A stretch of 64,000 nucleotides of DNA from Aminithiophilus ramosus (GTDB lineage Bacteria; Synergistota; Synergistia; Synergistales; Aminithiophilaceae), in contig NZ_CP072943.1 of the NCBI RefSeq assembly GCF_018069705.1, positions 1,105,260 through 1,169,259 of the forward strand. The letters run 5' to 3'. Under the pieces are notes generated by a model. That model was not told the DNA's origin, did no database searches, and saw only the letters and a program-made list of their open reading frames with translations. Positions 27,701-62,000 of this stretch are shown piece by piece (position 1 is the first letter of the stretch; the number at the start of each line of letters is the position of its first letter). The position numbers and the translations under genes were made by a program.

Positions 27701-29086
27701 TTAAAGTTTGTACTTGGCCCGGTATTCCAGGGCCGGCTCATAGGCGGGATTGATCTTCAGGGCCTTGTCGAGCCACTGGGTGGCGTCCTTTTTCCGGCCC
27801 AGCTTGTGAGCGGCGCGGGCGGCCCAGTAGGCGTCGAGGTAGTTCCCCTCGTAGGCCTCGAAGGCGTTGACGAAGGCCTTGTAGGCCTGAGAGAACTGGT
27901 TATTCGAGTAGCTGTAGTAGCCTCCCTTGTGGGAGATGAGGATGGCGTTCTTCGTGGCCCCGTCTATGGGGTAGCCGTCGACGACGTCGGTCTGATCCGA
28001 GGTGTTGGCCGTTCCTCCCGTGAGGGGGACCTGGGACGGAGCCGGAGCGCTTTCAGGAGCCGGGGCGCTTTCGACGGCCACGGTCTGGGGCACAGGTGCC
28101 GGCTGGTAGGGGGCAGCCGGAGCCGCATCGGTCCCGATCCGGCTCAGCTCCTCCAGGGAGCGGCTGCGCAGGGGCTCCTTCTCGACGTCGCCGAAGAAGA
28201 ACTCGATCTTGTCGCCTCGGCGCAGCTCGCCTCCCTTGCCCTTGGCGACGGAGCACTTGGAGTAGCGTCCCTGGACCTCTTCGGCCTTCAGGAGGGCCAC
28301 CGTCTCCTTTTCGACGTCGATAAGACTGCCGTCGATGCCGATAACGGGGTTGGTCTCGATATAGACGCGGAAGATCTGCCCCTTCTGGACGCCGTTGGCG
28401 CTGCCCACGTCGACGGTTACGGAGGAAGAGGAGGAGGCCAGGACGTTATAGGCCACGGGACTCAGGTCGCGCATGAGCCGCTGGGAGATCTTCTGGACGC
28501 AGTCGTAGGTGGCGGCCGAGAGAAGGCCGCCGCTCTCACCCTGGCCGAGGACGACGCCGCCCAGGTAGGCTCCGCTCATGGAGTGATCGGCCAGTCCGGC
28601 CTCGCGGATGGAAGTGCGGACCTCGGCCGTCTCGACGTCGATGACGCGGACATCGAGGGAGACCTTGGCCTTCGTCTGGCCCGTGGCGATGCCGACGCCG
28701 ACGCCGAGAAGAGGGATGGCTCCTCCCGAAGTCGTCGAGGTGAACTCCGTGATGGCTCCGGTGATGATGCACTGAACGCCGACGAGGCGTCCCAAAGAGA
28801 CAGCCGTTCCGGCGTCAACGAGGCCTGAGACGGCCAGACGCTGTTCCTGGGCGAGGCCTTCCAGCTGGCTTCGTTCGTAGACGGAGAAGGCCCCCGTCCG
28901 GACCAGCTCCGTCGTCAGCATGTCCGTGATGCCGCGACGGACGGCATCGTCGACGGCCGAGCCGCCGGTGGCGTTGTTCTGGAACTCGAGGACGGCGATC
29001 TTCATCTTCGCCTGAGCCTGAGGAGCGGACAGCAAGAGCAGCGGCAGGGCCAGCAGAATGAGGACGACTCTCTTTTTTCTCAACAA
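27701..29086 (-). CDS. CsgG/HfaB-family envelope protein with C-terminal TPR segment
   Basis: An exported protein of about 461 residues with a signal peptide (about residues 1-26, ending APQAQA). A CsgG-type domain follows: KIAVLEFQNNATGG, LTTELVRTGAFSVYERSQLEGLAQEQRLAVSG, IITGAITEFTS, LDVRVIDVETAEV. Next come a domain around residues 220-310 (VTVDVGSANGVQKGQIF), a Pro/Ala/Glu-rich linker, and TPR-like helices (FSQAYKAFVNAFEAYEGNYLDAYWAARAAHKLGRK). It lacks a lipobox Cys. A GGAGG lies 8 nt before a TTG at 29086, which I choose. CsgG forms an outer-membrane secretion pore; here a scaffold or export role with the next gene is only inferred. Confidence 0.78.
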   Translation of the reverse strand: MLRKKRVVLILLALPLLLLSAPQAQAKMKIAVLEFQNNATGGSAVDDAVRRGITDMLTTELVRTGAFSVYERSQLEGLAQEQRLAVSGLVDAGTAVSLGRLVGVQCIITGAITEFTSTTSGGAIPLLGVGVGIATGQTKAKVSLDVRVIDVETAEVRTSIREAGLADHSMSGAYLGGVVLGQGESGGLLSAATYDCVQKISQRLMRDLSPVAYNVLASSSSSVTVDVGSANGVQKGQIFRVYIETNPVIGIDGSLIDVEKETVALLKAEEVQGRYSKCSVAKGKGGELRRGDKIEFFFGDVEKEPLRSRSLEELSRIGTDAAPAAPYQPAPVPQTVAVESAPAPESAPAPSQVPLTGGTANTSDQTDVVDGYPIDGATKNAILISHKGGYYSYSNNQFSQAYKAFVNAFEAYEGNYLDAYWAARAAHKLGRKKDATQWLDKALKINPAYEPALEYRAKYKL

Positions 29087-29367
29087 TGCATACACCTCCA
29101 AAAAGATAAGACCGATCTCATAGCGACTCGGAAAAGGGTATTGAAAAAGAATGCGTTCATTCCCTTATATAGCAAAAAAAGAGTCAAAGGGAAAGACGGA
29201 TTTCCTGCATTTCCTCTATTAAAGAGCGATTCTCTCGGACACCAAGGCTTCTCCTTTCGAAAAAATTCCGACAGGATCCCTTTTCGCGCTCTCACCTGTC
29301 CTGCGGCATCCGAAAGGACGGACGCTCCGACCCTCGTTTTCCCCCATGAAGATCTTTGTGTTTAATG

Positions 29368-31517: not shown

Positions 31518-33539
31518 ATGAACTCGTTGCGTGGAAGACTGATCGTCACCTTTCTCGCCGTCGCCCTCTCCGCCATAACCCTCGTCGGTTTCGTCGCCCT
31601 CAATCGCTCCCAGAAGGCCCTGCTCGATCTCGCCTGGAAGGAGGGCGACGCCTTGGCCGTCGCCCTCGCCCAGGAAGTCGACGCCTATCTCCGGGAGAGC
31701 GCGATGGTGCTCGAGATTCCCGCCGAGACGGAGATCTTCCGTTCCATGAACTGGGCCGACCAGAAGCCCCTTCTGGCTCCCATCCGCACTCGTTTCGGCT
31801 TCAACGACGTCTTCATCGCCAAGCCCGACGGATCGGTCTACTCGGCCGTACGCGACGTCGGCGGCGTCAACATCAAGGACAGGGAGTACTTCATCGAGGC
31901 CTTCAAACGAAACGAGACCGTCGTCTCCCACCCCGTCGCCGACCGCACGACGGGAGAAATGAGTATTTTCGTCGCCTCGCCCATCGCGCGCCCCGGAGAA
32001 AATCCCGTCGGCCTCGTCGTCGGCGCCCTGACGCTGAAGGCCGTTACCGAAGAGGTCGCGTCCGTCACGTGGGGCCAAAAGGGCTACGGCTATCTCCTCG
32101 ACAGCCGCGGCGTCGTCACGGCCCACCCCAACGGGGATCTCCTGGGACGGCTCAACGCCACGGAAGAAGGAGAGAAGGTCGCCCCCGAGCTGGCCCGGGC
32201 CATGAGGGAAGGCCTTTCGGGGAAGCCGGGCCGAGTCGGCTACTTCTTCCTCGGCGAGGACAGGATGACCACCTACGCCCCCGTTCCCTCCACGGGGTGG
32301 CTGGCGGCGGTGACGACGCCCGAAGCCGAGCTGCTTGCCCCCGTCCGGGCCCTGCGCACCCTCATCCTCGTCGTCTCGGCCCTTCTGGCCCTCGTCGTCG
32401 TCGTCTCCTTCTTCTTCGCCAACGCCGTCGCCGGTCCCGTCACGGCCATCGAGCGCCGCATGGAGGCCCTGGCCGAGGGCGACCTGGCCAGCCCGCTGGA
32501 GGCCCGAAGCTCCATCGCCGAGATCAGGAACCTCTCTTCGGCCATGGAGAAAACCCTTGCGAGCCTTTCCGATTCCTTCTCGGCCGTGGCCGACGTGGCC
32601 CACGAGCTGGGATCGGAGGCGGAGACCTTCGCCGCCGTGGCCCAGGAGACCAACGCCAGCGCCGAAGAGGCCCGATCGGGCGTCGAGACGGTGGGAGGCG
32701 CCATGGAGGCCCTGGCCGCCATCGGCCAGGAGCTGAACGCCTCCGTCGAGGAGGTGGCCTCCGGAGCCGCCACGGCGGCCACGAGAAGCGGGGAGACTTC
32801 GGAGGAGGTCGAAAAGGCGCGCCGTGCCGGAGAGCGGGGGCTCGAAGCCGTCAAGGGAACGGTGACGAACATCAACGGCGTGACCGTCGAAATCGAGGGC
32901 TCGGCCCGGGCCGTAGCAGAGCTGGCCGACAAGGCGGCCCAGATCGGGAAGATCGTCGCCGTCATCTCGGGCATCGCCGACCAGACGAACCTGCTGGCCC
33001 TCAACGCCGCCATCGAGGCGGCCCGGGCGGGCGAGCACGGCCGGGGCTTCGCCGTCGTCGCCGAGGAGGTGCGCAAGCTGGCCGAGGAGTCCAACGGGGC
33101 GGCGCGCAACATCGCCGACCTGGCCGGATCGATCGCCTCCGACCTCTTCTCCGTCAAGGAGGGGGCGGGGCGCAATCAGGAGGGAGCCCGCCAGGTCCTG
33201 GACCAGAGCCGCGACGTGGTGGAAAAGATCGAACTCATCCTCGAGACGCTGGATCGGATCGCCGCCTCCACGCAGGACGTGGCCACCGTGAGCCAGGGAC
33301 AGGCCTCCTCCAGCGAGGAGATCGCCTCGGCCATTCAGGACATGGCGAACAAGGTCAACGACTCCAACGCCATGGCCGGCAATGTCCGGGACCAGATGGC
33401 CGAAGTCGTCCAGGCCGCCGAGCGCGTCGCCCTGGGCGGAGAGGGACTGGCCCGCATCAGCGGAGAACTCCGGCGGCGCGTCTCGGCTTTCCGCCTTCGG
33501 GAGAGTCAGGCCGGACTCGTCGCCGTGCGAAAACGCTGA
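31518..33539 (+). CDS. Methyl-accepting chemotaxis protein with dCache-type sensor domain
   Basis: A 673-residue transmembrane chemoreceptor. First helix at about residues 7-30, a periplasmic dCache_1-like double-PAS sensor (about 35-285; [48 protein letters not shown]), second helix (about 288-315), HAMP linker, then a cytoplasmic signalling domain with the conserved hairpin tip [21 protein letters not shown]. dCache domains often bind amino acids or organic acids. ATG at 31518 with AGGAGG 7 nt upstream; the longer open frame overlaps cheW and is rejected. A stretch of 179 bp is almost identical to the second chemoreceptor gene at 60.2 kb. Confidence 0.95.
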
Positions 33540-49017: not shown

Positions 49018-50730
49018 CTAACGATCGCGCCTCGACAGGAGAAAGGGGACCAGGAGGAGGAGTCCCGCCGGAGCGAACCCCAGGGCACAGCCGCTGCTGC
49101 TCCCGCCCGAGGTGGGTTCGTCGCCGCTCGTCGGCTCGGCGATGGCCTTCTCGAAAAGACGGACGTCGGGGCTGGCGGGGTCGACGATGACAAGCTTGCC
49201 CGCCCCCACCTCGCTTATGGCCAGTTTCCCGTCGGGGAGAACGGCGGCGACGGGCGCCGAGATGCGCCGGGCCACGGCGACGCCCGTCGCATCGGCGGCG
49301 CTTTCGAGGCCCGAGCCGGAACCTCCGTCAAGAGCTGCCAGCTGGGGAACCCTGAGCGTGCCGGCGTCATCGAAAGGCCCATAGCCCGTTTCATTGTTGG
49401 CGCCCGGCACTCCCCACGGGAGATCGGCCGCCTCGTACTTCAGGACCCAGCTCCCGAGAGGATCGGAGAGGATGAGGTTGTCCGCTTCGTCGAAGGCCAG
49501 GGCGACGGCATGGGCATACCAGGAGAGGTAGAGGCCGGACTGAACTCCCTCTTCGGTGATCCGCATCAGCAGTCCCTGACGTCCGTCGACGAGGGCATGG
49601 AGCAGGCCCGTCGAATCGAAGGCGATGGCGTAGATGGAAAGAAGGGGATTTTTCTGTCCCTCCTCCGTTTCCACCTGTTCCATGTGAAGGTTTTCTTTGA
49701 TCGTCTCCATGGAGCAGAACTCGGTGAACGTCTCCCCTCCCGCCCGAAGCCTTTCGATGGACTGCCCCAGCCAATCGCCGTTGAAGACGGCTGTGACACT
49801 TCGAGGCGCCGTGGCGACGTAGACGTCGCCCGTCGAGGGATCGACGGCGATGGAGCTGGGCATCGTCCCCAGCGTATCCCACTCCCCCTGTTTGGTCAGG
49901 CCGGCATCGTAGCGGATCACCTTCGACGTGCCGAAATCGGCCACGTAGACGTCGCCGCCGGGAGAGACGGCCATCGCCATGGGCGTATCGAGCCCCGTCG
50001 CCGAGGCGGCGCCGAGGGAGGCGGAGTCCCCTCCTGCGGAGAGGTCGCCGACGGAAAGGGCCGTGACGAAGCCCTCGAAGAGATTGGCGATGTAAATCTT
50101 TTCGTTTCCCACGGCGAGGCCGCCCGTGGCGTTGAGCGCTCCCGTGACGGAAAGGGCGGCGGAGAGGGGCTCGGAGAACCCCGTTCCGTCATATTCGAGG
50201 CGCAGGGAGAGCCGGGCCGGCTCCGAGACGCCGTCAGGCTCCTCCACAGTCCCCTCGTAGGCCGTGCCCAGGGCCGCGGCCGTGGGGATCGTGGGACTCC
50301 AGGGATCGTCGTAGCCCTCCACGCCGAGAGGTGATACGGCGATCACGTCGTTCCACTCGCCGAAAAGGGCGGCGGAGAAGGTCACCGTCTCGCCCGGCAG
50401 AACTTCATGGAGCACCCGCCCCCAGCTCGTCGCCCCGGGAGACTCGGCCGGAGAATAATGCCAATGGAGGGGCCAGATCAGGTGGCCGAGATCGCCATGG
50501 TAGCCGTCACCGCTTCGCTCCTGGATTAACGTTTTATTCAGGGCGGCAGGCCACACGGAATGATCGGAACGGTTGACAACCGTGACGTCGACCACAAAGG
50601 CACCCTGTTTAAGCAGACCATCGACCAGCAGGGCGCCCATACGCCCTCCATAAACGATGCCGCAGAAGAGAAAGACGACGAGACAGACGGGCAAGAGCAA
50701 ATAAAGCGAGAACCGAACTCTCTTATTCAC
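49018..50730 (-). CDS. Exported beta-propeller (NHL-like) protein with Synerg-CTERM-type sorting signal
   Basis: About 570 residues. N-terminal signal anchor (about 10-30), a beta-rich domain (FVVDVTVVNRSDHSVW...LHEVLPGETVTFSA), then NHL/SMP30-like blades (GLAVGNEKIYIANLFEGFVTAL, AMAVSPGGDVYVADFGTSKVIRYD, SIAVDPSTGDVYVATAP). The end is a sorting-type signal: TSGGSSSGCALGFAP, a hydrophobic helix and RRDR, as in the Synerg-CTERM family. GTG at 50730 has GGAGG 8 nt upstream. Probably surface-bound after processing. It is paralogous to the next upstream gene, which lacks the C-terminal signal. Function unknown. Confidence 0.82.
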   Translation of the reverse strand: MNKRVRFSLYLLLPVCLVVFLFCGIVYGGRMGALLVDGLLKQGAFVVDVTVVNRSDHSVWPAALNKTLIQERSGDGYHGDLGHLIWPLHWHYSPAESPGATSWGRVLHEVLPGETVTFSAALFGEWNDVIAVSPLGVEGYDDPWSPTIPTAAALGTAYEGTVEEPDGVSEPARLSLRLEYDGTGFSEPLSAALSVTGALNATGGLAVGNEKIYIANLFEGFVTALSVGDLSAGGDSASLGAASATGLDTPMAMAVSPGGDVYVADFGTSKVIRYDAGLTKQGEWDTLGTMPSSIAVDPSTGDVYVATAPRSVTAVFNGDWLGQSIERLRAGGETFTEFCSMETIKENLHMEQVETEEGQKNPLLSIYAIAFDSTGLLHALVDGRQGLLMRITEEGVQSGLYLSWYAHAVALAFDEADNLILSDPLGSWVLKYEAADLPWGVPGANNETGYGPFDDAGTLRVPQLAALDGGSGSGLESAADATGVAVARRISAPVAAVLPDGKLAISEVGAGKLVIVDPASPDVRLFEKAIAEPTSGDEPTSGGSSSGCALGFAPAGLLLLVPFLLSRRDR

Positions 50731-50844
50731 CGCACTCACCTCCATTTTTGAAGTCTAGCATCGCTTCGTTCTCTTAGATATGGGAGCTTTCCTTGCACAA
50801 CAGTGCATAAATTATTCATTTTTTCCCGTTCCGCCATACACCCC

Positions 50845-52287
50845 TCAAAAAGAGTTTCCCAAAGGAAGCTCTTCCAGGAAGACATCGAAACGGCGGAGGC
50901 GCGGGGTGGCCGCCTCGACGACAGCGATCGTTTCATCGGCGGCGACGACGGGGTAGGCCAGCCTCGTCGTCACCCGTTCAGGAAGGACGCACGGTCCGTC
51001 GTCTCCCGGAAGCCCCAAACGGGCCGAGGAGCCGAACCCGCCCTCTTCGGGCGGCCCCCAGGGCAAGGTCCCGGCATCGTAGAGGAGGAGACGACGTCCG
51101 ACGAGATCCGCCAGAAGGAGGTCGCCTCGAGCAGTGAAGGCGAAGGAGAGGGCTCCTCCGCGAGGGAGCTCCAAACCCGCCTCGACCTTGCCCTCTCCGT
51201 CGAGACGGACGACGAAGTAGGTCCGTCCGCCGACGAGGAGATGAAGCCGTCCCCGATCGTCGCAGGCCAGATCGAGAAGGACCATGAAGCGGTCGAGGGA
51301 GAGGGCCCGCCGCAGCTCGCCCACGTCAAAAAAAGGAAGGCTCCCTCCTCGGGCCACGTCGACTCTCTCGACGGACTGGCCGAAAAGCTCCCCCTTGGCG
51401 AAGGCCACGAGATTCCAGGGGGCCGTCACGACGAAGAGGACGCCGTCGGAGGCGGCCATGGCAGCAGGAAGACGCCCGACGGTCCGGATCTCTCCGAGAC
51501 GGTGGAGATCGCCGTCGTAACGGACGATTCTTCCCGCGCCCAAATCGGAGACATAGACCTCGCCCGTCGCGGCGTCGGCGGCCACACCCAGAGGCGCGTC
51601 CAACCCCTCCGCTCTCTGCGGAGACGATCCGTCCGCGGGAAAGGCGAGAAGGGCTCCCTCCAGGACATCGGCCACGTAGGCCCTGCCGCCTAGGAGGGCC
51701 ACGTCGCCGAAAACGCGGGGAGGGACCTCCTTGAGGGTCAGGGGGGAAACGACGAGGAAGGCCCTGCCGTCGTAGGCCACCGTGACGGAAAGCCGCGCCG
51801 GCTCCGAAGGGGGGACTCCGGGGCTCGTCGCGGGAAGAGAGAGAGAGCTTCCCGCGCTCTCGGCTCTCCCCCCGGCGAGACGGAGAGGGCGAAGGTCGAC
51901 GGCATCGCCCCACCGTCCATGGACGGCTGCGGGAAAGGTGATCGTCTCGCCGGGTCGGACCTCGTGAAGAAGACGCCAGGGAGAGGGCCTTTCGCTGCCG
52001 TCGATCGTCACGACCCAGTGGTGAGGCCACTTGCAGCTCTTCGCCCTCGCCGGGGAAAAGGCCGACTCGGCCAGATCGAGGTAGGTCCGGGCCAGTCGGG
52101 CGTTGGAGACGGCCGCCGTCACGGCCCCACCCGAATCGTTGACGACGGTGACGTCGACGACGAAATCGGCCTTGGTTCGGGCGAAACGGATCAGGTAGGC
52201 GCGCCTCGGCGTCCCGATTGTAAGGGCAATGACGACGGCGAGGGCGAGAGCCGCGACGGGCAGGACGAAAAAACGGAAGCGCTTCAC
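50845..52287 (-). CDS. Exported beta-propeller (NHL-like) protein, paralogue without sorting signal
   Basis: 480 residues with an N-terminal anchor (about 5-25) and the same layout as its neighbour: FVVDVTVVNDSGGAV, LLHEVRPGETITFPAAVHGRWGDAVDL, then blades such as AADAATGEVYVSDLGAGRIVRYD and LACDDRGRLHLLVGGRTYFVVRLD. It ends FLEELPLGNSF with no Gly-Cys-hydrophobic tail. GTG start with GAGGAGG 7 nt upstream. It follows the RND pump gene closely, so it could be co-transcribed with it. Function unknown. Confidence 0.8.
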   Translation of the reverse strand: MKRFRFFVLPVAALALAVVIALTIGTPRRAYLIRFARTKADFVVDVTVVNDSGGAVTAAVSNARLARTYLDLAESAFSPARAKSCKWPHHWVVTIDGSERPSPWRLLHEVRPGETITFPAAVHGRWGDAVDLRPLRLAGGRAESAGSSLSLPATSPGVPPSEPARLSVTVAYDGRAFLVVSPLTLKEVPPRVFGDVALLGGRAYVADVLEGALLAFPADGSSPQRAEGLDAPLGVAADAATGEVYVSDLGAGRIVRYDGDLHRLGEIRTVGRLPAAMAASDGVLFVVTAPWNLVAFAKGELFGQSVERVDVARGGSLPFFDVGELRRALSLDRFMVLLDLACDDRGRLHLLVGGRTYFVVRLDGEGKVEAGLELPRGGALSFAFTARGDLLLADLVGRRLLLYDAGTLPWGPPEEGGFGSSARLGLPGDDGPCVLPERVTTRLAYPVVAADETIAVVEAATPRLRRFDVFLEELPLGNSF

Positions 52288-52299
52288 CGATGCACCTCC

Positions 52300-55200
52300 T
52301 CAAGGAACGGAAAGCCTCGAAAAAGGGAATCCCGATGCGGTCGACCTCATGACCGCCGTGCCGCCCTCCACTGCCGGAAGGCCCAGATCCGCTCGTAGAT
52401 GGGCGGAACGACAAAAAGGGCCCAGAGTGCCTCCGGCGAAAAGCCCCCCGATGGCCACCATGGCCATGGGAACCCTATAGGCGCCGCCGGCTCCCAGCCC
52501 CATGGCGAGGGGGATCATGGCGATGATGGACGTGGCGTCGGCCATGACGATGGGACGGAGTCTGACGCGGCAGGCCTCGACGACGGCGTCGAAGGGGGTA
52601 CGCCCCCTTTTGCGGACGATTTCGGCGTAGTCGACGACGACGATGGCGTTGTTGACGACGAGGCCGACGAGCATGATCAGACCCAGGGCCCCGTAAAGGG
52701 AAATGTTGGTCCGCGTCACGAGAAGGAGAGGGACGACGCCGATGAGGGAGAAGGGAACGGTGACCATGATGACGAGGGCGAAGACGTAGGATTCGAGGAT
52801 GGCGGCGATCATGAGAAAGGTGATGACGATGGCCATGGCAAAGGCGATGATCATGTAGGTGAAATTCTCCCTCATGTCCTCCACCTCGCCGCCGTAGACC
52901 AGACGGTACCCTCGCGGCAGCTTCATGGCGTTCAGCTCGGCGGAGATGTCCCGAAAGGCCTCCCCCACGGAACGTCCCGTCACGTCGGCCTCGACGGTGA
53001 CGGAGCGGACTCGGTCCTTGCGGAGGATCTGCGTCGGACCGGCGCCGTAGGTCGTCTCGGCGAGGACGTCGAGGGGAGCGAAACCCCGGGGCCCCCTCAG
53101 AGGCAGGTCGGGAACGAGGAAGACGTTGTCCACCTTTTCCGGCGCCAGACGGACGAGGATGTCGTACTCCTTTCCCTCGCTGCGGAAGACACCGGCCTTT
53201 TTGCCCGTCACGTAGCCGCGGACCGTGTCGGCCAGGTCGGTCACCGTCAGCTCCTGCTGGGCCAGACGCCATCTCACGGGGCGGATCTGAAGTTCCGTAC
53301 GGCCCAGCCGCCAGTCCGTATCGGCGTCGACGATGCCCTCGGTGCGGCGCACGACGTCGAGAACGGCCGTGGCCAGTTCGTTGAGGAGGATCATGTCATC
53401 GCCGACGACGGAAATCTGAAGGGCTTTCCCCGGGGCACCTCCCCCCTCGGCCGCGGCGGTGAGGCTCGCCGTCAGGTCGGGAAAGGCCGCCAGGAAGGGG
53501 CGTATCGCGTCGGCCACGGCGAAGGTGCTCGGCCTTCCCGGATCATCGCCGAGAAAAAGTCGGATGCGGCTCCTGTTGACGCCCGAGCTGGAACCGGCAC
53601 CGCCGACGAGAACCTCGACGGCGTCGAGATGAGGCAAGGAGCGGACATGCTCTTCGATTCGATTCGTCACCTCCGTCGTGTAGGCCAGAGAGGCGACGGT
53701 GGGCAGCTCCAGATCGATCTGGACGATGCCCTGGTCGGCCTTGGGAAAAAACTCGAAGCCCAGCCGGGGGACAAGGGCCACGGAACCGCCGAAAAGCAGC
53801 AGGGAGAGGCCGATGGAGAGAAGGGGATGGCGCAGGGCCGTCACGACGAGCTCATCGTGGATCTCCTCGAAGCCGCGGTAGAGCCAGCTCCACCACCCAG
53901 TCAGGAGACGGCTGAGCCTGCCGGGCTCGTCGTAGCGGACTCGGGCGGCCATCATGGGCGTGAAGGTCATGGCCACCCAGAGAGAGAAAAGCGTCGAAAA
54001 GACGACGGCCAGGGCGAAATCGCGCAGAAACTGTCCCACGATGCCCCCCATGAAGGCCACGGGGATGAAGACGCCCAAATTGGTGAACGTCGTCGAGAGG
54101 ACGGACAGGGCGATCTCCGACGTCCCCCTCTCGGCGGCCTCGACGGGGCCGTAGCCCATTTCTCGGTAGCGGAAGATGTTCTCGATGACGAGGATGGCGT
54201 TGTTGACGAGGACGCCGATGGAGATGGCCAACCCCAGGGTGCTCATGATGTTCATGGTGATGTCGGCGCCGTAGAGGAGGATGAAGGTGGCGACGACGGC
54301 CGTGGGCATGGCCAGGACAACGACGAGGGTGACGCCGAGGCGTCTCAGGAAGAGGAAGAGGATGAGGGCCGTCAGGGCGATGCCCGACGCCATGTCGCGG
54401 AAGACGTTGCCGATGGACTCGGCGATGAAGGTCGAGTCGTCGTTGGTCACCTCGATCGCCATCCCCTCGGGAAGATCGTCGGCGATATCGCCGACGAGAC
54501 CCTCGATGCGGCGGCTGATCTCGACGATGTTGCTGTTGGGCGTGGCGATACACTCGATGAAAAGGGCCGATCGGTCCCGATAGCGGGCAAAACCTCGGCG
54601 TTCCTCCGTCGTGTCGACGATGCGGGCCACGTCGGAGAGGAGGACCGAGGCCCCCTCTCCTCGGGCGATGCGGATCTCGCCGAGGCGTTCCACGTCGTCG
54701 ATCTCGCCCATGACGCGGATGGAGAGCTCCTGACGCCCCTTCGAGATGTGCCCTGAGGGATCGTTGAACTTGTCGCGCCGGAGGACGGCCACGATCTCCA
54801 TCAGGGGCAGGCCGTACTGGTTGAGCCGGTTGGGATCGAGGTAGACGTGGATTTCGCGACGGACGTCTCCTCGGATGTCGGCCTTGGCCAGCCCCTCGAT
54901 CTGAGTGATGCGCCTCTGGATCTTGTCCTCGACGATGTCGTAGGCCTGTTCCGGCGGGAGGTTGGACGTGACGGCCAGGGTCAGAAAGGGCTGGGCGTTG
55001 ATGTCGTACTTTTCGACGATGGGATCGTCGGCCTCATCGGGCAGGAGCCCCTGGACGGCCTTGACCCGGTTGGAGACATCCAGATTGGCCTCGGAGACGT
55101 TGATGCCGTACTCGAACCAGACGACGACGTAGGAGATGCCCTCCAGGGAGTAACTTTCTATCTCCTTCACGCCCTCGACCTGCGAAACGGCATCCTCGAC

Positions 55201-55395
55201 GGGTTTGGTGACGAGCGTTTCGATCTCCTGGGGGCCGGCCCCGTCATAGAGGGTGGCGACGACGACGGGGATGTCGATCTTGGGGAGCAGGGCAATGCCC
55301 GTGGAAAAGTAGCTGTAGGCACCGATGACGACGGCGAGGAGGACGAAGACCGTCGTCATGACGGGACGGCGGATGAAGACGGAGAGGAAGGCCAT
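52300..55395 (-). CDS. RND efflux transporter permease with frameshifted C-terminus
   Basis: Inner-membrane proton-driven pump of the HAE/AcrB family, 1031 residues as read. Seen: N-terminal IRRPVMTTVFVLLAVVIGAY, IATPNSNIVEISRRI, first membrane-domain GVLVNNAILVIENIFRYRE and second GLVVNNAIVVVDYAEI repeats, and MADATSIIAMIPLAMG. About residue 990 the family-like ending breaks: in the +1 frame after base 52418 the DNA reads ALFVVPPIYERIWAF and stops at 52347, as expected. The current frame instead gives an unrelated Cys/Arg/Ser-rich tail to 52300. One extra base in GGGCCC (52418-52423) explains this. Whether the product still works is unknown. Confidence 0.88.
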   Translation of the reverse strand: MAFLSVFIRRPVMTTVFVLLAVVIGAYSYFSTGIALLPKIDIPVVVATLYDGAGPQEIETLVTKPVEDAVSQVEGVKEIESYSLEGISYVVVWFEYGINVSEANLDVSNRVKAVQGLLPDEADDPIVEKYDINAQPFLTLAVTSNLPPEQAYDIVEDKIQRRITQIEGLAKADIRGDVRREIHVYLDPNRLNQYGLPLMEIVAVLRRDKFNDPSGHISKGRQELSIRVMGEIDDVERLGEIRIARGEGASVLLSDVARIVDTTEERRGFARYRDRSALFIECIATPNSNIVEISRRIEGLVGDIADDLPEGMAIEVTNDDSTFIAESIGNVFRDMASGIALTALILFLFLRRLGVTLVVVLAMPTAVVATFILLYGADITMNIMSTLGLAISIGVLVNNAILVIENIFRYREMGYGPVEAAERGTSEIALSVLSTTFTNLGVFIPVAFMGGIVGQFLRDFALAVVFSTLFSLWVAMTFTPMMAARVRYDEPGRLSRLLTGWWSWLYRGFEEIHDELVVTALRHPLLSIGLSLLLFGGSVALVPRLGFEFFPKADQGIVQIDLELPTVASLAYTTEVTNRIEEHVRSLPHLDAVEVLVGGAGSSSGVNRSRIRLFLGDDPGRPSTFAVADAIRPFLAAFPDLTASLTAAAEGGGAPGKALQISVVGDDMILLNELATAVLDVVRRTEGIVDADTDWRLGRTELQIRPVRWRLAQQELTVTDLADTVRGYVTGKKAGVFRSEGKEYDILVRLAPEKVDNVFLVPDLPLRGPRGFAPLDVLAETTYGAGPTQILRKDRVRSVTVEADVTGRSVGEAFRDISAELNAMKLPRGYRLVYGGEVEDMRENFTYMIIAFAMAIVITFLMIAAILESYVFALVIMVTVPFSLIGVVPLLLVTRTNISLYGALGLIMLVGLVVNNAIVVVDYAEIVRKRGRTPFDAVVEACRVRLRPIVMADATSIIAMIPLAMGLGAGGAYRVPMAMVAIGGLFAGGTLGPFCRSAHLRADLGLPAVEGGTAVMRSTASGFPFSRLSVP

Positions 55396-55403
55396 CGATC
55401 CCC

Positions 55404-56504
55404 CTACTCCCGGTCGCTCTCGGGCTTTTCGTTGTCGCCGTCGAGCCAGACCCGGGCGCCGTCATAGAGGCCGTCCATCCCCTCGACGACGACGGCCTCT
55501 CCCACATCCAATCCTGCGGGGATCTCGACGAGCCCCTCCTGGGCCGATCCGGCCTGGAAATCGCGCCGGAAGGCCCGGTCGCCGGAGACGACGAAGAGGT
55601 AGGTTCGGCCCGACTCGCGGCGGATCGCCTCGTAGGGAACGGCGACGACGTCGGGCCGGTCGTCGACGAGAAAGCGCACCTCCACGTAGGTGCCGGGCCG
55701 GAGAAAGCGCTCTCCTTCGAGGGAGACGACGGCCCGATAGAGACCCGTGGCCTCATCCGCTTCGGGATCGACGCGCTTCACGCTCCCCTCGACGGTAGGG
55801 CCGTCGACGATGATCTCGGCCCTCGTGCCGGACCCGACGGCGAAAAGATCGCCGGGGGCGATCAGGGCCTCCACTTCGAGTGACTCCAGGTCGGCCAGGC
55901 GGAGGAGAATCCGCCCGCCTTCGGCCACCTCGCCCACCTCGGCGTCGCGCATGACCACGACGGCCCGCCGCTGAGCCCTGACACGGGTCCGTTCCAGGGT
56001 GGAGCGGACTTCGGCCAAGGAGGAGCGAAGCGTTTCAAGAAGAACGGAGGCCGTGTCCAGCTCCTTGCCGGCCATGCCTCCCGCCTCGACAAGGGCCTTT
56101 CTGCGCCGATAATCCCTTTCGGCCTCGCCGATTTCGGCGAGACGGGCCTTGAGAGCGGCCGACTGCGTCTGTCGGGAAAGCTCGACGAGGATTTCTCCCG
56201 GACGGACCTCCTCGCCCACGTCGACAGGGACATGAACGATCACCTCGCGGAGAAAGGAGGAGATCTCCTGAACCGTCGCCGCCCGGACCTTGCCGTAGGC
56301 ACTCTTCCATCGCCGCCAGGGAAGGGCCTCGACGGACCAGGTCCTGACGGGAAGGCCCTTCTCCGCCCGCAGCGCGGCCGCACTCCGGGCAGGGGCCTCC
56401 CTGTCGTGAGGGACGACGACGCGATAGGTCACGAGGCAAGCCACAGCCAGGAAGAGAAGGCTCCAGAACCCCTTTTGCAGGCGCCGTTCCGTCGCACGCT
56501 TCAC
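55404..56504 (-). CDS. RND efflux periplasmic adaptor subunit
   Basis: Membrane-fusion protein of about 366 residues linking the RND pump to an outer-membrane channel. N-terminal membrane anchor (about 11-30), lipoyl-type half motifs (VPVDVGEEVRPGEILVEL, and RAVVVMRDAEVGEVAEGGRILLRLADLESLEVEALI), a helical hairpin between them, a beta-barrel (GTYVEVRFLVDDRPDVVAVPYEAIRRE) and a C-terminal beta domain. GTG at 56504 has GGAGG 7 nt upstream and overlaps the tolC-type stop (GTGA). 8 nt before the RND gene. Confidence 0.9.
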   Translation of the reverse strand: MKRATERRLQKGFWSLLFLAVACLVTYRVVVPHDREAPARSAAALRAEKGLPVRTWSVEALPWRRWKSAYGKVRAATVQEISSFLREVIVHVPVDVGEEVRPGEILVELSRQTQSAALKARLAEIGEAERDYRRRKALVEAGGMAGKELDTASVLLETLRSSLAEVRSTLERTRVRAQRRAVVVMRDAEVGEVAEGGRILLRLADLESLEVEALIAPGDLFAVGSGTRAEIIVDGPTVEGSVKRVDPEADEATGLYRAVVSLEGERFLRPGTYVEVRFLVDDRPDVVAVPYEAIRRESGRTYLFVVSGDRAFRRDFQAGSAQEGLVEIPAGLDVGEAVVVEGMDGLYDGARVWLDGDNEKPESDRE

Positions 56505-57782
56505 GGGAAGACCTCCTCCACCCCGTAGACTCCCATGGCCCGCCGCATATCGACGAGGGCCAGACACATCCCCCTGACGGCTTCGAGCTCTTCCGTTCGA
56601 GCCCGTTGCTGTTCCGTCTGAGCCTCCATGACGTCAAGCTGGGAGCCGTAGCCTTCCTCGTACATGAGGAGCGTCACACGGAACTCCTCATCCGCCTGGA
56701 CAACCTGCTTCCGGGCCGAACGCTCCAGAGCCGCCGCCCGCTCCCAGCGGTTCCGGGCCAGGTCCAGCTCCTCTTCGAGAGCTCTCTCCTCGGCACTCAG
56801 GGCGCTACGGGCACGCGCCAGAGAGGCCTCGGCCCTGGCCCTCTCGGCGCGGGCCCGTCCTCCGTCGCTCAACGGCAGGGTCAGGTCGAGGCGGAAGACC
56901 ACCTCTCCCCGATCGGGAAGCGTCGCCCCTTCGGGATCGGCCAGAGCCGTATAGGCCCACGGAACCGTCGAGGACCGGAGCCATACCCCTGGCGGCCAGA
57001 GCCCGCTCGACACGGCAAAGTTCCGCCTCTCCCTCGAGGCGGACCAGAGCCGGTCTCTGCCGCCGAGCCCGTTCGCGATCGGCCTCAAGGAAGGACGGGA
57101 GGAGAAACGCGCCCTCGTCGGGCTCGACATCGCCGCCTCCGACGAAAGTCGACAGGCGGGAGAGCTCGTCTCTCTCGTCTGCCCGAGCCCGGACGAGAAG
57201 GCTCTCCTGCTCCTTCAGCCTTGTCGAGGCCCGGACCACGTCGAGGCGGGGAACCAGACCCTGGCGGAAACGTTCCTCCACGACGCGCAACGTCTCACGC
57301 CTCTCGTCGAGGAGCGCCTCCTGGAGCTTCACTCGACGGCGGGCCATGAGGGCGGACCAGTAAACCTCCTCGGCATTGCCGAGGAGGTCGTTGACCGTCT
57401 CTTTGTGACCGGCGACGGCGACGGCATAGGTGAGCAGGGCATGCCGTTCCTCGAGGGAGTGCCGGCCGGAAAGGTCGAAAGGCTGGGTCAGGGCCAGCTG
57501 CACATAACCATAGCCCTCCCGATCTCCCTCGGAGAGCAGCCACCCCGCCCCCTTGAGGGCGAGAGAAGAACGCTGATGGACCACGGAGAGGGTCGCCGTC
57601 TCGCGGCGAGCCTCCAGATCGTGCCGGGATGTTTCCAGTTCCTCGTTTCCCTGCAGCACTCTCTCGAGAAAGAGATCGAGGGAGAGGGGCTCGGCACCGG
57701 GAGGAGCGGCCAGCGGCACCGGGAGGAGGGAAAGGAGCAGCAACAGCGGAACGAAGCGGCGTCCAACGATCGTCGGGGTCAT
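56501..57782 (-). pseudogene. TolC-family outer-membrane efflux protein, interrupted by a frameshift
   Basis: Two overlapping frames together encode one TolC-type channel. The first, from ATG 57782 (GGAGG 7 nt upstream), has a signal peptide and the first coiled-coil half (LQGNEELETSRHDLEARRETATL, RLKEQESLLVRARADERDELSRLS) up to about residue 274. The second continues with LADPEGATLPDRGEVVFRLDLTLPLSDGGRARAERARAEASLA and the second coiled coil (YEEGYGSQLDVMEAQTEQQRARTEELEA) to the stop at 56501. They join if one base is removed near 56951-56960 (GTGGGCCTAT on the minus strand). Either a real lesion that breaks the pump or a sequence error. Joined length about 426 residues, normal for the family. 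Confidence 0.85.
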
Positions 57783-57816: not shown

Positions 57817-59850
57817 CTACTTCACCGGTGGCTTCGAGCCACCTCGCGGCCTTCCTCTCCCCTTTTTATCGGCGAAACGGGAAAAGGCGAAGGCTCGTTC
57901 AGGACGGGAGCCGTCGGAGCGGGGCCGGTCGTCGCGGCGGGGAGCGTCGGAGCGGGGCCGGTCGTCGCGACGGGGAGCGTCGGAGCGGGGCCGGTCGTCG
58001 CGACGGGGGCCGTCGGAGCGGGGCCGGTCGTCGCGGCGGGGAGCGTCGGAGCGGGGCCGGTCGTCGCGACGGGGAGCGTCGGAGCGGGGCCGGTCGTCGC
58101 GGCGGGGAGCGTCGGAGCGGGGCCGGTCGTCGCGACGGGGGCCGTCATAGCGGGGCCGGTCGTCGCGACGGGGGCCGTCGGAGCGGGGCCGGTCGTCGCG
58201 ACGGGGGCCGTCATAGCGGGGCCGATCGTCGCGACGGGGAGCGTCGGAGCGGGGCCGGTCGTCGCGACGGGGGCCGTCATAGCGGGGCCGATCGTCGCGA
58301 CGGGGAGCGTCGGAGCGGGGCCGGTCGTCGCGACGGGGGCCGTCGGAGCGGGGCCGGTCGTCGCGGCGGGGAGCGTCGGAGCGGGGCCGGTCGTCGCGGC
58401 GGGGAGCGTCGGAGCGGGGCCGGTCGTCGCGGCGGGGAGCGTCGGAGCGGGGCCGGTCGTCGCGGCGGGGAGCGTCGGAGCGGGGCCGGTCGTCGCGACG
58501 GGGGCCGTCATAGCGGGGCCGATCGTCGCGACGGGGAGCGTCGGAGCGGGGCCGGTCGTCGCGACGGGGGCCGTCATAGCGGGGCCGGTCGTCGCGACGG
58601 GGGCCGTCATAGCGGGGCCGGTCGTCGCGACGGGGGCCGTCATAGCGGGGCCGGTCGTCGCGACGGGGAGCGTCGGAGCGGGGCCGGTCGTCGCGGCGGG
58701 GAGCGTCGGAGCGGGGCCGGTCGTCGCGGCGGGGACCGTCGGAGCGGGGCCGATCGTCGCGGCGGGGACCGTCGGAGCGGGGCCGGTCGGAGGCGGGGCG
58801 CCCCTGATAGGTCTCTCCGGCTTCACGGCGCCTGAGCTGGCCGCAGGCGGCATCGATATCGGAGCCTTTCTCGGCCCGCGTCTCGACCTCGACGCCGAGA
58901 GACTGGAGTTCCTCCTTGAAACCCTGAACGCGCGCCCGGGAAGAACGCTTGAAATCGGCCCCTTCGACGGCGTTGAAGGGGATGAGGTTCACGTAGGCCT
59001 TCATGCCCGAAAGGAGGGCAGCCAGGTCGCGGGCATGGGAGAGACTGTCGTTGACATCGGCCATGAGGAGATACTCGAAGGAGATGCGGTTGCCCGTCCG
59101 CTCCTGGTAATCGCTGAGGGCGGCCATGAGAGCCCCCAGAGGATAACGCTTGTCGACGGGCATGAGACGACTCCGGAGTCCGTCGGTGGGGGCGTGGAGG
59201 GAGACGGAGAGCCCCACCCCAGGCGCCTCCTGGGCGAGACGCCTTATGGCCGGAACGATGCCGGCCGTCGAGACGGTGAAGCGGCGGATGCTCATGGCGC
59301 GCAGCTTCGTATGATTGAGGATGGCGATGGCCTTGAGAAGGGCATCGACATTGAGGAGCGGCTCTCCCATGCCCATAAAGACGACGTTGGCGATATCCCG
59401 TCCGAGGTGGGCCTCCATGGCCAGGAGCTGGCCCACGATCTCTCCTGCCGACAGATCGCGTACGAATCCGCCCTGCCCCGTGGCGCAGAACGTGCAGCTC
59501 AGAGGACAGCCGACCTGTGTCGAAAGGCAGGCCGTCTGGCGGTTATCGTGAACGAGGAGGACCGATTCGACCGTCTCCCCGTCGTCGAGGCGCCAGAGGA
59601 ATTTTTTCGTTCCGTCCCTCTCGGAAGTCACATCCCGGGAGAGACGGGGAGGCGTAAAGTCAATTTCCAGAGCCAACCGCTCCCTCAGGGGAATCGAGAG
59701 ATCGGTCATTTGCGAAACATCGAAGATGCGCCTGCGGTAGACCCAGGCCCCGACCTGATCCACGCGAAAACGGGGCTCTCCGAGTCGTTCCTCGAAAACA
59801 AGGCGCAACTCTTCGTAATCCATATCCAATCCTTTAATGACACTTCCCAT
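57817..59850 (-). CDS. rlmN: 23S rRNA/tRNA adenine-C2 methyltransferase RlmN with a long Arg/Asp/Pro repeat tail
   Basis: Residues 1 to about 345 are a complete RlmN, the radical-SAM enzyme that methylates C2 of A2503 in 23S rRNA and A37 in some tRNAs: iron-sulfur ligands C115, C119, C122 (GCPLSCTFCATGQGGF), VVFMGMGEPLLN, SVSLHAPTD, and the methyl-carrier Cys C336 in DIDAACGQL. From residue 355 an unrelated tail follows: 26 complete copies plus one degenerate copy of an 11-residue unit (DRPRSDGPRRD and variants with SDA or YDG), then a basic end (KKGRGRPRGGSKPPVK). ATG at 59850 with GGAGG 7 nt upstream. Such tails occur on RNA helicases; on RlmN this is unusual. The efflux genes follow 34 nt later. 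Confidence 0.95.
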   Translation of the reverse strand: MGSVIKGLDMDYEELRLVFEERLGEPRFRVDQVGAWVYRRRIFDVSQMTDLSIPLRERLALEIDFTPPRLSRDVTSERDGTKKFLWRLDDGETVESVLLVHDNRQTACLSTQVGCPLSCTFCATGQGGFVRDLSAGEIVGQLLAMEAHLGRDIANVVFMGMGEPLLNVDALLKAIAILNHTKLRAMSIRRFTVSTAGIVPAIRRLAQEAPGVGLSVSLHAPTDGLRSRLMPVDKRYPLGALMAALSDYQERTGNRISFEYLLMADVNDSLSHARDLAALLSGMKAYVNLIPFNAVEGADFKRSSRARVQGFKEELQSLGVEVETRAEKGSDIDAACGQLRRREAGETYQGRPASDRPRSDGPRRDDRPRSDGPRRDDRPRSDAPRRDDRPRSDAPRRDDRPRYDGPRRDDRPRYDGPRRDDRPRYDGPRRDDRPRSDAPRRDDRPRYDGPRRDDRPRSDAPRRDDRPRSDAPRRDDRPRSDAPRRDDRPRSDAPRRDDRPRSDGPRRDDRPRSDAPRRDDRPRYDGPRRDDRPRSDAPRRDDRPRYDGPRRDDRPRSDGPRRDDRPRYDGPRRDDRPRSDAPRRDDRPRSDAPRRDDRPRSDAPRRDDRPRSDGPRRDDRPRSDAPRRDDRPRSDAPRRDDRPRSDGSRPERAFAFSRFADKKGRGRPRGGSKPPVK
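57898..58788 (-). repeat. 33-bp tandem repeat array inside rlmN (26 full units plus a partial)
   Basis: On the minus strand each 33-bp unit encodes D-R-P-R-[S/Y]-D-[G/A]-P-R-R-D. Three variants (SDG, SDA, YDG) are interspersed. The unit length is a multiple of 3, so all frames stay open through the array, producing spurious long frames on both strands. Confidence 0.95.
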
Positions 59851-60245: not shown

Positions 60246-62000
60246 TTATCGGCTCTCCCTGGCAGGAACGAGACCGCCTTCGGTGCCTCCGATTCGGAAG
60301 AAGGCCATTCTCTCTTTCAGTTCCTCGCTCACCTGGGCCAGCCCCTCCGCTCCATGGGCCATACGTTCGGCGGCCTGAGACACCTCGCCGACCTGGCTGC
60401 CCACTCTGTGAGCCATGGCATTGGAGTCACCGACCTTGCCCGCCATGTCCTGAACGGCCGAGGCGATCTCCTCGCTGGAGGCGGCCTGCTCCTCGCTGAC
60501 GGCGGCCACGTCCTGCGTCGACGCGGCAATCTTCTCCAGCGCCCCCAGGATGAGGGTGATCTTCTCGGCGACGTCGCGCACGAGGCGATCGACGTTGCGG
60601 GCCCCCTCCTGATTGCGCCCCGCTCCTTCCTTCACGGCGACCAGATCGGAGGCGATCGATCCGGCCAGGTCGGCGATGTTGCGCGCCGCCCCGTTGGACT
60701 CCTCGGCCAGCTTGCGCACCTCTTCGGCGACGACGGCGAAGCCCCGGCCGTGCTCGCCCGCCCGGGCCGCCTCGATGGCGGCGTTGAGGGCCAGCAGGTT
60801 CGTCTGGTCGGCGATGCCCGAGATGGTCCCGACGATCTTCTGGATCTGAGCCGCCTTGGCGGCCAACTCCACCGTGGCTCTGGCCGAGTCCTCGACCCGT
60901 TCGATCTGGCCGGCCACGTCGGCCACCGTCGTCTTGACGACGGCCATTCCGGCCTCTCCGGCCCGGCGGGCCCCTTCGACCTGCTGCGAGACGTCGCCGC
61001 TTCGCGCGGCCGCCGTCCCGGCCCCGGCGGCCACCTCTTCGACGCTGGCGTTCAGCTCCTGTCCGATGGCGGCCAAGTTCTCCATGGCATCTTCCAGAGA
61101 CTCGGCTCCCGATCGGGCCTCCTCGACGCCGGCGTTGGATTGTTCCGCGAGGGCGGCTATTTCCTCGGCCTCGTGGCCGAGCCTGACGGCGACGGATCCG
61201 ACGGCACCGATGACCTCGCGCAGAGCTGTCCCCATCATCTCAAGCTTGGCGGCGATGTCGGCGACCTCGTCGCGCCCCTCGTCGGAGAAGGAGACCGTCA
61301 GATCTCCCCCGGCGAAGCGCTCGACGAGAGCCTCCAGGCGGGCGAGAGGTCTCGTGACGCCCCGCCCGACGGCCCAACCGATGAGGGCGGACAGGAAGAG
61401 GGCCGAAAGGGAGGCGATGAGAAGCCGCCTCGAGGCGACGCCATTGGCTGCGAGAACGGACTCCTTCCCGCTTTCGGCGAAAGCCTCCTGGCGCTCGGCG
61501 AAGGCGAGGAGGGCGGCCTGATAGGCCTCGCTCAGCGGAGCGACATCCTCAAGAAAGATCTCGTAGGCGATCCGGTTCTGGTTGGCCTGGGCCAGTATGA
61601 TGACTTCCTGACGGGCGTCGACGAAGGCTTTGCGGGCCTCGCCGACGCGGGCCAGAAGACGGCGATCCTCGTCGTCGAGATCGGCCTCGCCGATACGGGC
61701 AAATCCCTCGTCGATGAGACGGGTTCTTTCGTCCATCTCCTTCAGGATGGCCCTGTTGCGTCCCTCGTCGTCGGTGAGCATGAGGTGATAGGTCTCGCGC
61801 TCCGTCACCGTGACATGGGTGCAGATGTCCTTGGCGATGAGGGCGGGAACGAGAGCGTTCTCGTAAAGATCGACGAGGTTCTCTCCGGCGTGTTCCGCCG
61901 CTCCGTAGCCGATGTAGCCGACGGCGGCGACGGAAAGAGCCGAGACGGCGACGAGGATCAGGATTTTGGCGAACGTTCGCATGCGGCGCAGCAGGGCCAT
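60246..62000 (-). CDS. Methyl-accepting chemotaxis protein with four-helix-bundle sensor
   Basis: A 584-residue chemoreceptor. First helix at about 8-30, a helical periplasmic domain of the 4HB_MCP type ([25 protein letters not shown] ... [20 protein letters not shown]), a second helix near 185-205, HAMP ([27 protein letters not shown]), and a signalling domain with [24 protein letters not shown] at 62000 has GGAGG 7 nt upstream; the longer frame is not supported. A 179-bp stretch (60646-60824) differs from the other chemoreceptor gene at only one base. Confidence 0.94.

Follow-up and report, generated by a model that had tools for sequence, protein, structure and literature searches.

Does the tripartite RND efflux operon on the minus strand of this stretch encode a working multidrug pump, and are the frame breaks that its sequence appears to contain inherited mutations or errors of the assembly? 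The window, by which we mean the whole stretch of 64,000 nucleotides analyzed here, covers bases 1105260-1169259 of a single-contig genome of 3.11 Mb with a completeness of 98.45%. Among named records, those nearest to this genome are L-13 (Synergistota bacterium, CP074691.1) and a MAG of the same genus, Synergistales SV1-B2.2. On the minus strand, the operon runs from an rlmN-like gene through a tolC-family gene, an adaptor gene and an RND permease gene to two genes for propeller-like proteins. We propose that its tripartite part, tolC, adaptor and RND permease, is very probably a recent pseudo-operon that arose in the common ancestor with L-13.

Two altered genes in a three-gene pump

The RND permease ORF (52300-55395, minus strand; 1031 aa) is of the AcrB/MdtB type and gives a near full-length match to the Pfam family ACR_tran (709 bits, profile positions 2-1006 of 1021), which ends at residue 989 and leaves the final 15 profile positions unmatched. 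The protein scores under the NCBIfam cut-offs for named subfamilies; of the chains with a solved structure, E. coli MdtB is nearest to it in sequence. The ORF departs from the family sequence after ...GGTL, at a TGGGCCC run (52424-52418, minus strand), and its last ~40 residues, the replacement tail encoded at 52300-52417 (minus strand), are unrelated to the family, as a sequence-only reading of this DNA had proposed for a tail that it put at about 35 codons. That reading had also pointed to a family-typical tail in the other frame with a stop at 52347, and this is borne out: past the run, positions 52347-52415 (minus strand) encode FVVPPIYERIWAFRQWRAARRS, which corresponds to the end of TM12 plus a basic tail, with the stop at 52349-52347, and the SV1-B2.2 counterpart is FAIPPIYERIWAFRQWRAARRDG. 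The run is one base longer than in SV1-B2.2 and the net length difference at the lesion site is one base, in agreement with the extra base that had been suspected there. Over 23 tail codons, a count that takes in two non-homologous terminal codons, the window and SV1-B2.2 differ at 3, 2, and 8 sites at family-frame codon positions 1, 2, and 3, respectively. A nearly identical stretch of 21 residues in the alternative frame would not plausibly arise by chance.

Only the window and L-13 carry the replacement tail. In a 31-sequence alignment of selected loci, rather than of every match from a search that matched 60 of 61 genomes, the [IV]P..Y tail motif is present in all 29 other RND sequences and absent from these two, so that neither the window nor L-13 has an RND permease with an intact TM12 and C-terminal [IV]P..Y tail. 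Left out of the alignment were the search's own copy of the window (L012) and L013, whose tail equals that of L010 and which we treated as a duplicate of that record; a Planctomycetota locus with 26% identity (L011) was not used. The viral contigs searched contained no relative of the RND protein.

Could the family tail still be reached by translation? A +1 frameshift, whether programmed or simply productive, would restore it, and slippage on the T5 run that immediately follows the RND site could, for instance, bring one about: CCTTTTTG, directly after the site, would allow re-pairing of a Phe codon in the +1 frame, and the tail in that frame is still conserved. However, the tail lies in frame without any shift in the 29 other relatives, which argues against a conserved frameshift signal, and the tolC lesion, with no T5-like run at its site, would have to be bypassed by a separate mechanism. 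For lack of a conserved signal we reject this reading, which we regard as the least probable of those considered.

The lesion appears to swap the second half of TM12 and the basic tail for unrelated residues, and the best 19-residue mean hydropathy in the TM12 region is only 1.54 in the window, against 2.14 in SV1-B2.2. A permease altered in this way probably does not fold properly or has no activity. One account places TM12 of AcrB in R2, a repeat of five helices that moves (PMC4359379).

The second altered gene is that of the tolC-family outer-membrane channel (56501-57782, minus strand), whose profile matches are split over two frames. TolC-family matches fall in two ORFs, 57782-56805 and 57130-56501, which lie in different frames and meet near 56955, at a TGGGCC run (56954-56959, minus strand) that is again one base longer than in SV1-B2.2. 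TIGR01844 matches the two ORFs at profile positions 100-254 and 277-399 of 414, and no uninterrupted channel gene is found in the window; the corresponding place in SV1-B2.2 holds an uninterrupted ORF of 436 residues. Among 11 loci compared for tolC and adaptor, L-13 has the same split as the window, tolC is in one frame in each of the five relatives in which the adaptor is accompanied by both tolC halves (L010, L071, L072, L077, L078), and no tolC match was found at the five further loci. TolC would, from these frames, no longer be made as one protein.

The sequence-only reading was thus right that two of the three pump genes are altered, both at GGGCC-type runs (TGGGCC at 52424-52419 and 56959-56954). 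The third, the periplasmic adaptor (55404-56567, minus strand), is unbroken: it belongs to the RND_mfp family by TIGR01730 (140.8 bits, cut-off 94.9) and lies in a single frame in the window, in L-13, and in the relatives that have it. Its real start is probably the GTG at ~56504, overlapping the tolC stop.

Lesions shared with strain L-13

Both lesions are common to L-13. Between 47.6 and 57.8 kb the window and L-13 differ by four substitutions and no indels, and for both pump sites the lesion is present in this second strain and missing from the relatives examined. The two records are nevertheless clearly different strains: over ~77 kb they differ by 82 substitutions outside repeats, a second pump locus has 98.2% identity, and the genome sizes are 3.11 Mb here vs 3.20 Mb in L-13. 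Outside tandem repeats, the same ~77 kb contain only two single-base indels. One, within a run of G, frameshifts and interrupts the L-13 gene at 27701-29101 (minus strand), which reads through in the window copy; the other lies in a run of C outside the window. With so few indels between the strains, we do not find it credible that each assembly acquired errors independently at the two pump sites; such a coincidence would be very unlikely. An error private to this assembly is rejected, since L-13 has both lesions.

The sequence-only reading had left the choice between a decaying pump and assembly indels at these runs. The comparison supports the first alternative and not the second: a search for an orthologue that shares the alternative tail found one, in L-13, which has the tolC lesion as well, and such runs are not generally broken. 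The two frame breaks were most likely inherited as genuine mutations, rather than introduced by this assembly alone, and annotation of the locus as a working multidrug pump is probably wrong. Apparent frameshifts in a single assembly can, as here, be cheaply tested against a near strain. Being common to both strains by descent, the lesions count as one event.

How might the decay have proceeded? One single-base length change splits tolC in its middle and a second lies in the last codons of the RND permease; in either order, the failure of one component would have relaxed selection on the rest, and the second lesion would have followed. The decay is recent, since the DNA past the RND lesion has kept the code for the family tail. 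In the L-13 permease, residue 845 has changed to S, where F is found in 26 of 29 other relatives, and residue 870 to C, where all 29 have an aromatic residue; both changes are consistent with relaxed selection. A third substitution in the operon falls at a variable position of the adaptor. All three change an amino acid, vs 29 of 62 in called genes elsewhere, a sample too small to weigh.

The permease might instead be functional with its new C-terminus, perhaps together with another outer-membrane channel, so that only tolC was lost. The RND protein matches its family all the way to residue 989, the adaptor is unbroken, and in some relatives no tolC was seen next to the adaptor and RND genes (four loci with an adaptor match: L070, L074, L075, and L076, of which the L070 stretch stops at a contig end). 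However, the replacement takes out the final half of TM12, a part that all 29 other aligned relatives conserve, the hydropathy is lower, and the L-13 permease has its two changes at conserved aromatic positions; we consider a working permease improbable. It is far less probable that the new C-terminus, or translational coupling to the downstream gene 52287-50845, is being kept and that the former permease serves a lineage-specific role; the shifted RND frame does extend the ORF to about a dozen bases from that gene. Peptides from FVVPPIYERIWAF or a full-length TolC-family protein, if made, would mean function or frameshifting rather than decay of the pump.

A possible sequence error at TGGGCC runs

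The only artefact left after the comparison with L-13 is an error of sequencing or assembly that recurs systematically and affects both records, to which we assign a low probability. By this explanation, TGGGCC runs would be misread in both records, for instance by base-modification-linked miscalling on one long-read platform, and the operon would be intact in the living cell. The two lesions do both lie at TGGGCC (52424-52419 and 56959-56954, minus strand) and have the same sense. The motif is over-represented in the window (67 occurrences, where shuffled sequence gives 50.6 with sd 6.6). GGGCCC is more frequent than its reversed control in this genome (2636 vs 1947) and in L-13 (2651 vs 2015) but not in SV1-B2.2 (1404 vs 1651). 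Each assembly also has private one-base differences, in L-13 the one in the gene at 27701-29101 and in this genome one in its second RND gene. A literature search found no sequencing platform for the two assemblies.

A systematic error of this kind predicts, however, that other TGGGCC sites should be broken as well. We found 59 such sites in homologous frames without a break. Of these, 34 lie around the window, the two lesions not counted, and 25 in five unbroken RND genes, which indicates that TGGGCC runs are not generally broken. In addition, a scan for frame changes against relatives around the window, which is blind to short lesions at gene ends, that of the RND gene included, reported four places, two of them from the tolC lesion and two from opposite-strand ORFs, and thus no real break besides tolC. 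A second decayed pump in this genome has moreover lost roughly 1 kb, a deletion too large for a homopolymer error. These observations make an error shared by both assemblies unlikely, and inherited decay of the operon the explanation that we prefer.

A codon-usage Viterbi scan for frameshifts returned no junctions in a first run and many false ones, from opposite-strand coding, in a second; it was not counted.

Spare pumps and neighboring genes

The second RND locus (G000:C1:249529-251635) has an ACR_tran match that begins at position 299, the first 298 positions being absent in both strains (L007, G000:C1:248029-252762, in this genome; counterpart L049 in L-13). At the same place SV1-B2.2 has a full-length gene, with an open frame of 1089 matched from residue 8 to 988, and parts that abut in this species lie ~1 kb apart there. 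This deletion of ~1 kb indicates that the decay of pump loci in this species is not limited to indels at short runs. The private frameshift of this genome in the second RND gene lies near profile position 889 and is absent in L-13. The adaptor of the second locus apparently shifts frame too, as read from translations only.

Five further RND genes in this genome lie in one frame and span profile positions 1-4 to 1019-1020. With at least five other unbroken RND genes, losing one spare pump would plausibly be tolerated.

Systems of the AcrAB-TolC and MdtABC-TolC type share with the window the order outer-membrane channel, adaptor, RND permease, as well as matches to the Pfam families ACR_tran, HlyD_3/HlyD_D23, and OEP. 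The window differs from them in that the channel gene lies in two frames and the permease C-terminus has been replaced. Pseudogenised RND loci in bacteria show small frameshifts in several genes of an operon, common to close strains and intact in relatives, and set against such loci the operon in the window is not different in kind. We thus regard the finding as ordinary biology that opens no long-standing question.

The genes that flank the pump have features of their own. Directly after the RND gene lie the two paralogous propeller-like proteins (49018-52287, minus strand), which align over 459 residues with 32% identity; an NHL repeat and a Synerg-CTERM sorting signal are present in the downstream protein. 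A search of 140 kb of the SV1-B2.2 contig found neither gene. At the other end of the operon, 57817-59850 (minus strand) encodes an RlmN-family rRNA methyltransferase, with a TIGR00048 match above cut-off at residues 8-345, followed by an extended C-terminal tail in which an 11-residue R/D/P-rich unit is repeated ~27 times. At the DNA level this tail is a 33-base tandem array (57906-58789), whose copy number in L-13 differs by a 33-base unit. Finally, matches to L-13 drew attention to two segments of the window, 32650-33453 and 60335-61138, that are ~82% identical and lie in opposite orientation.
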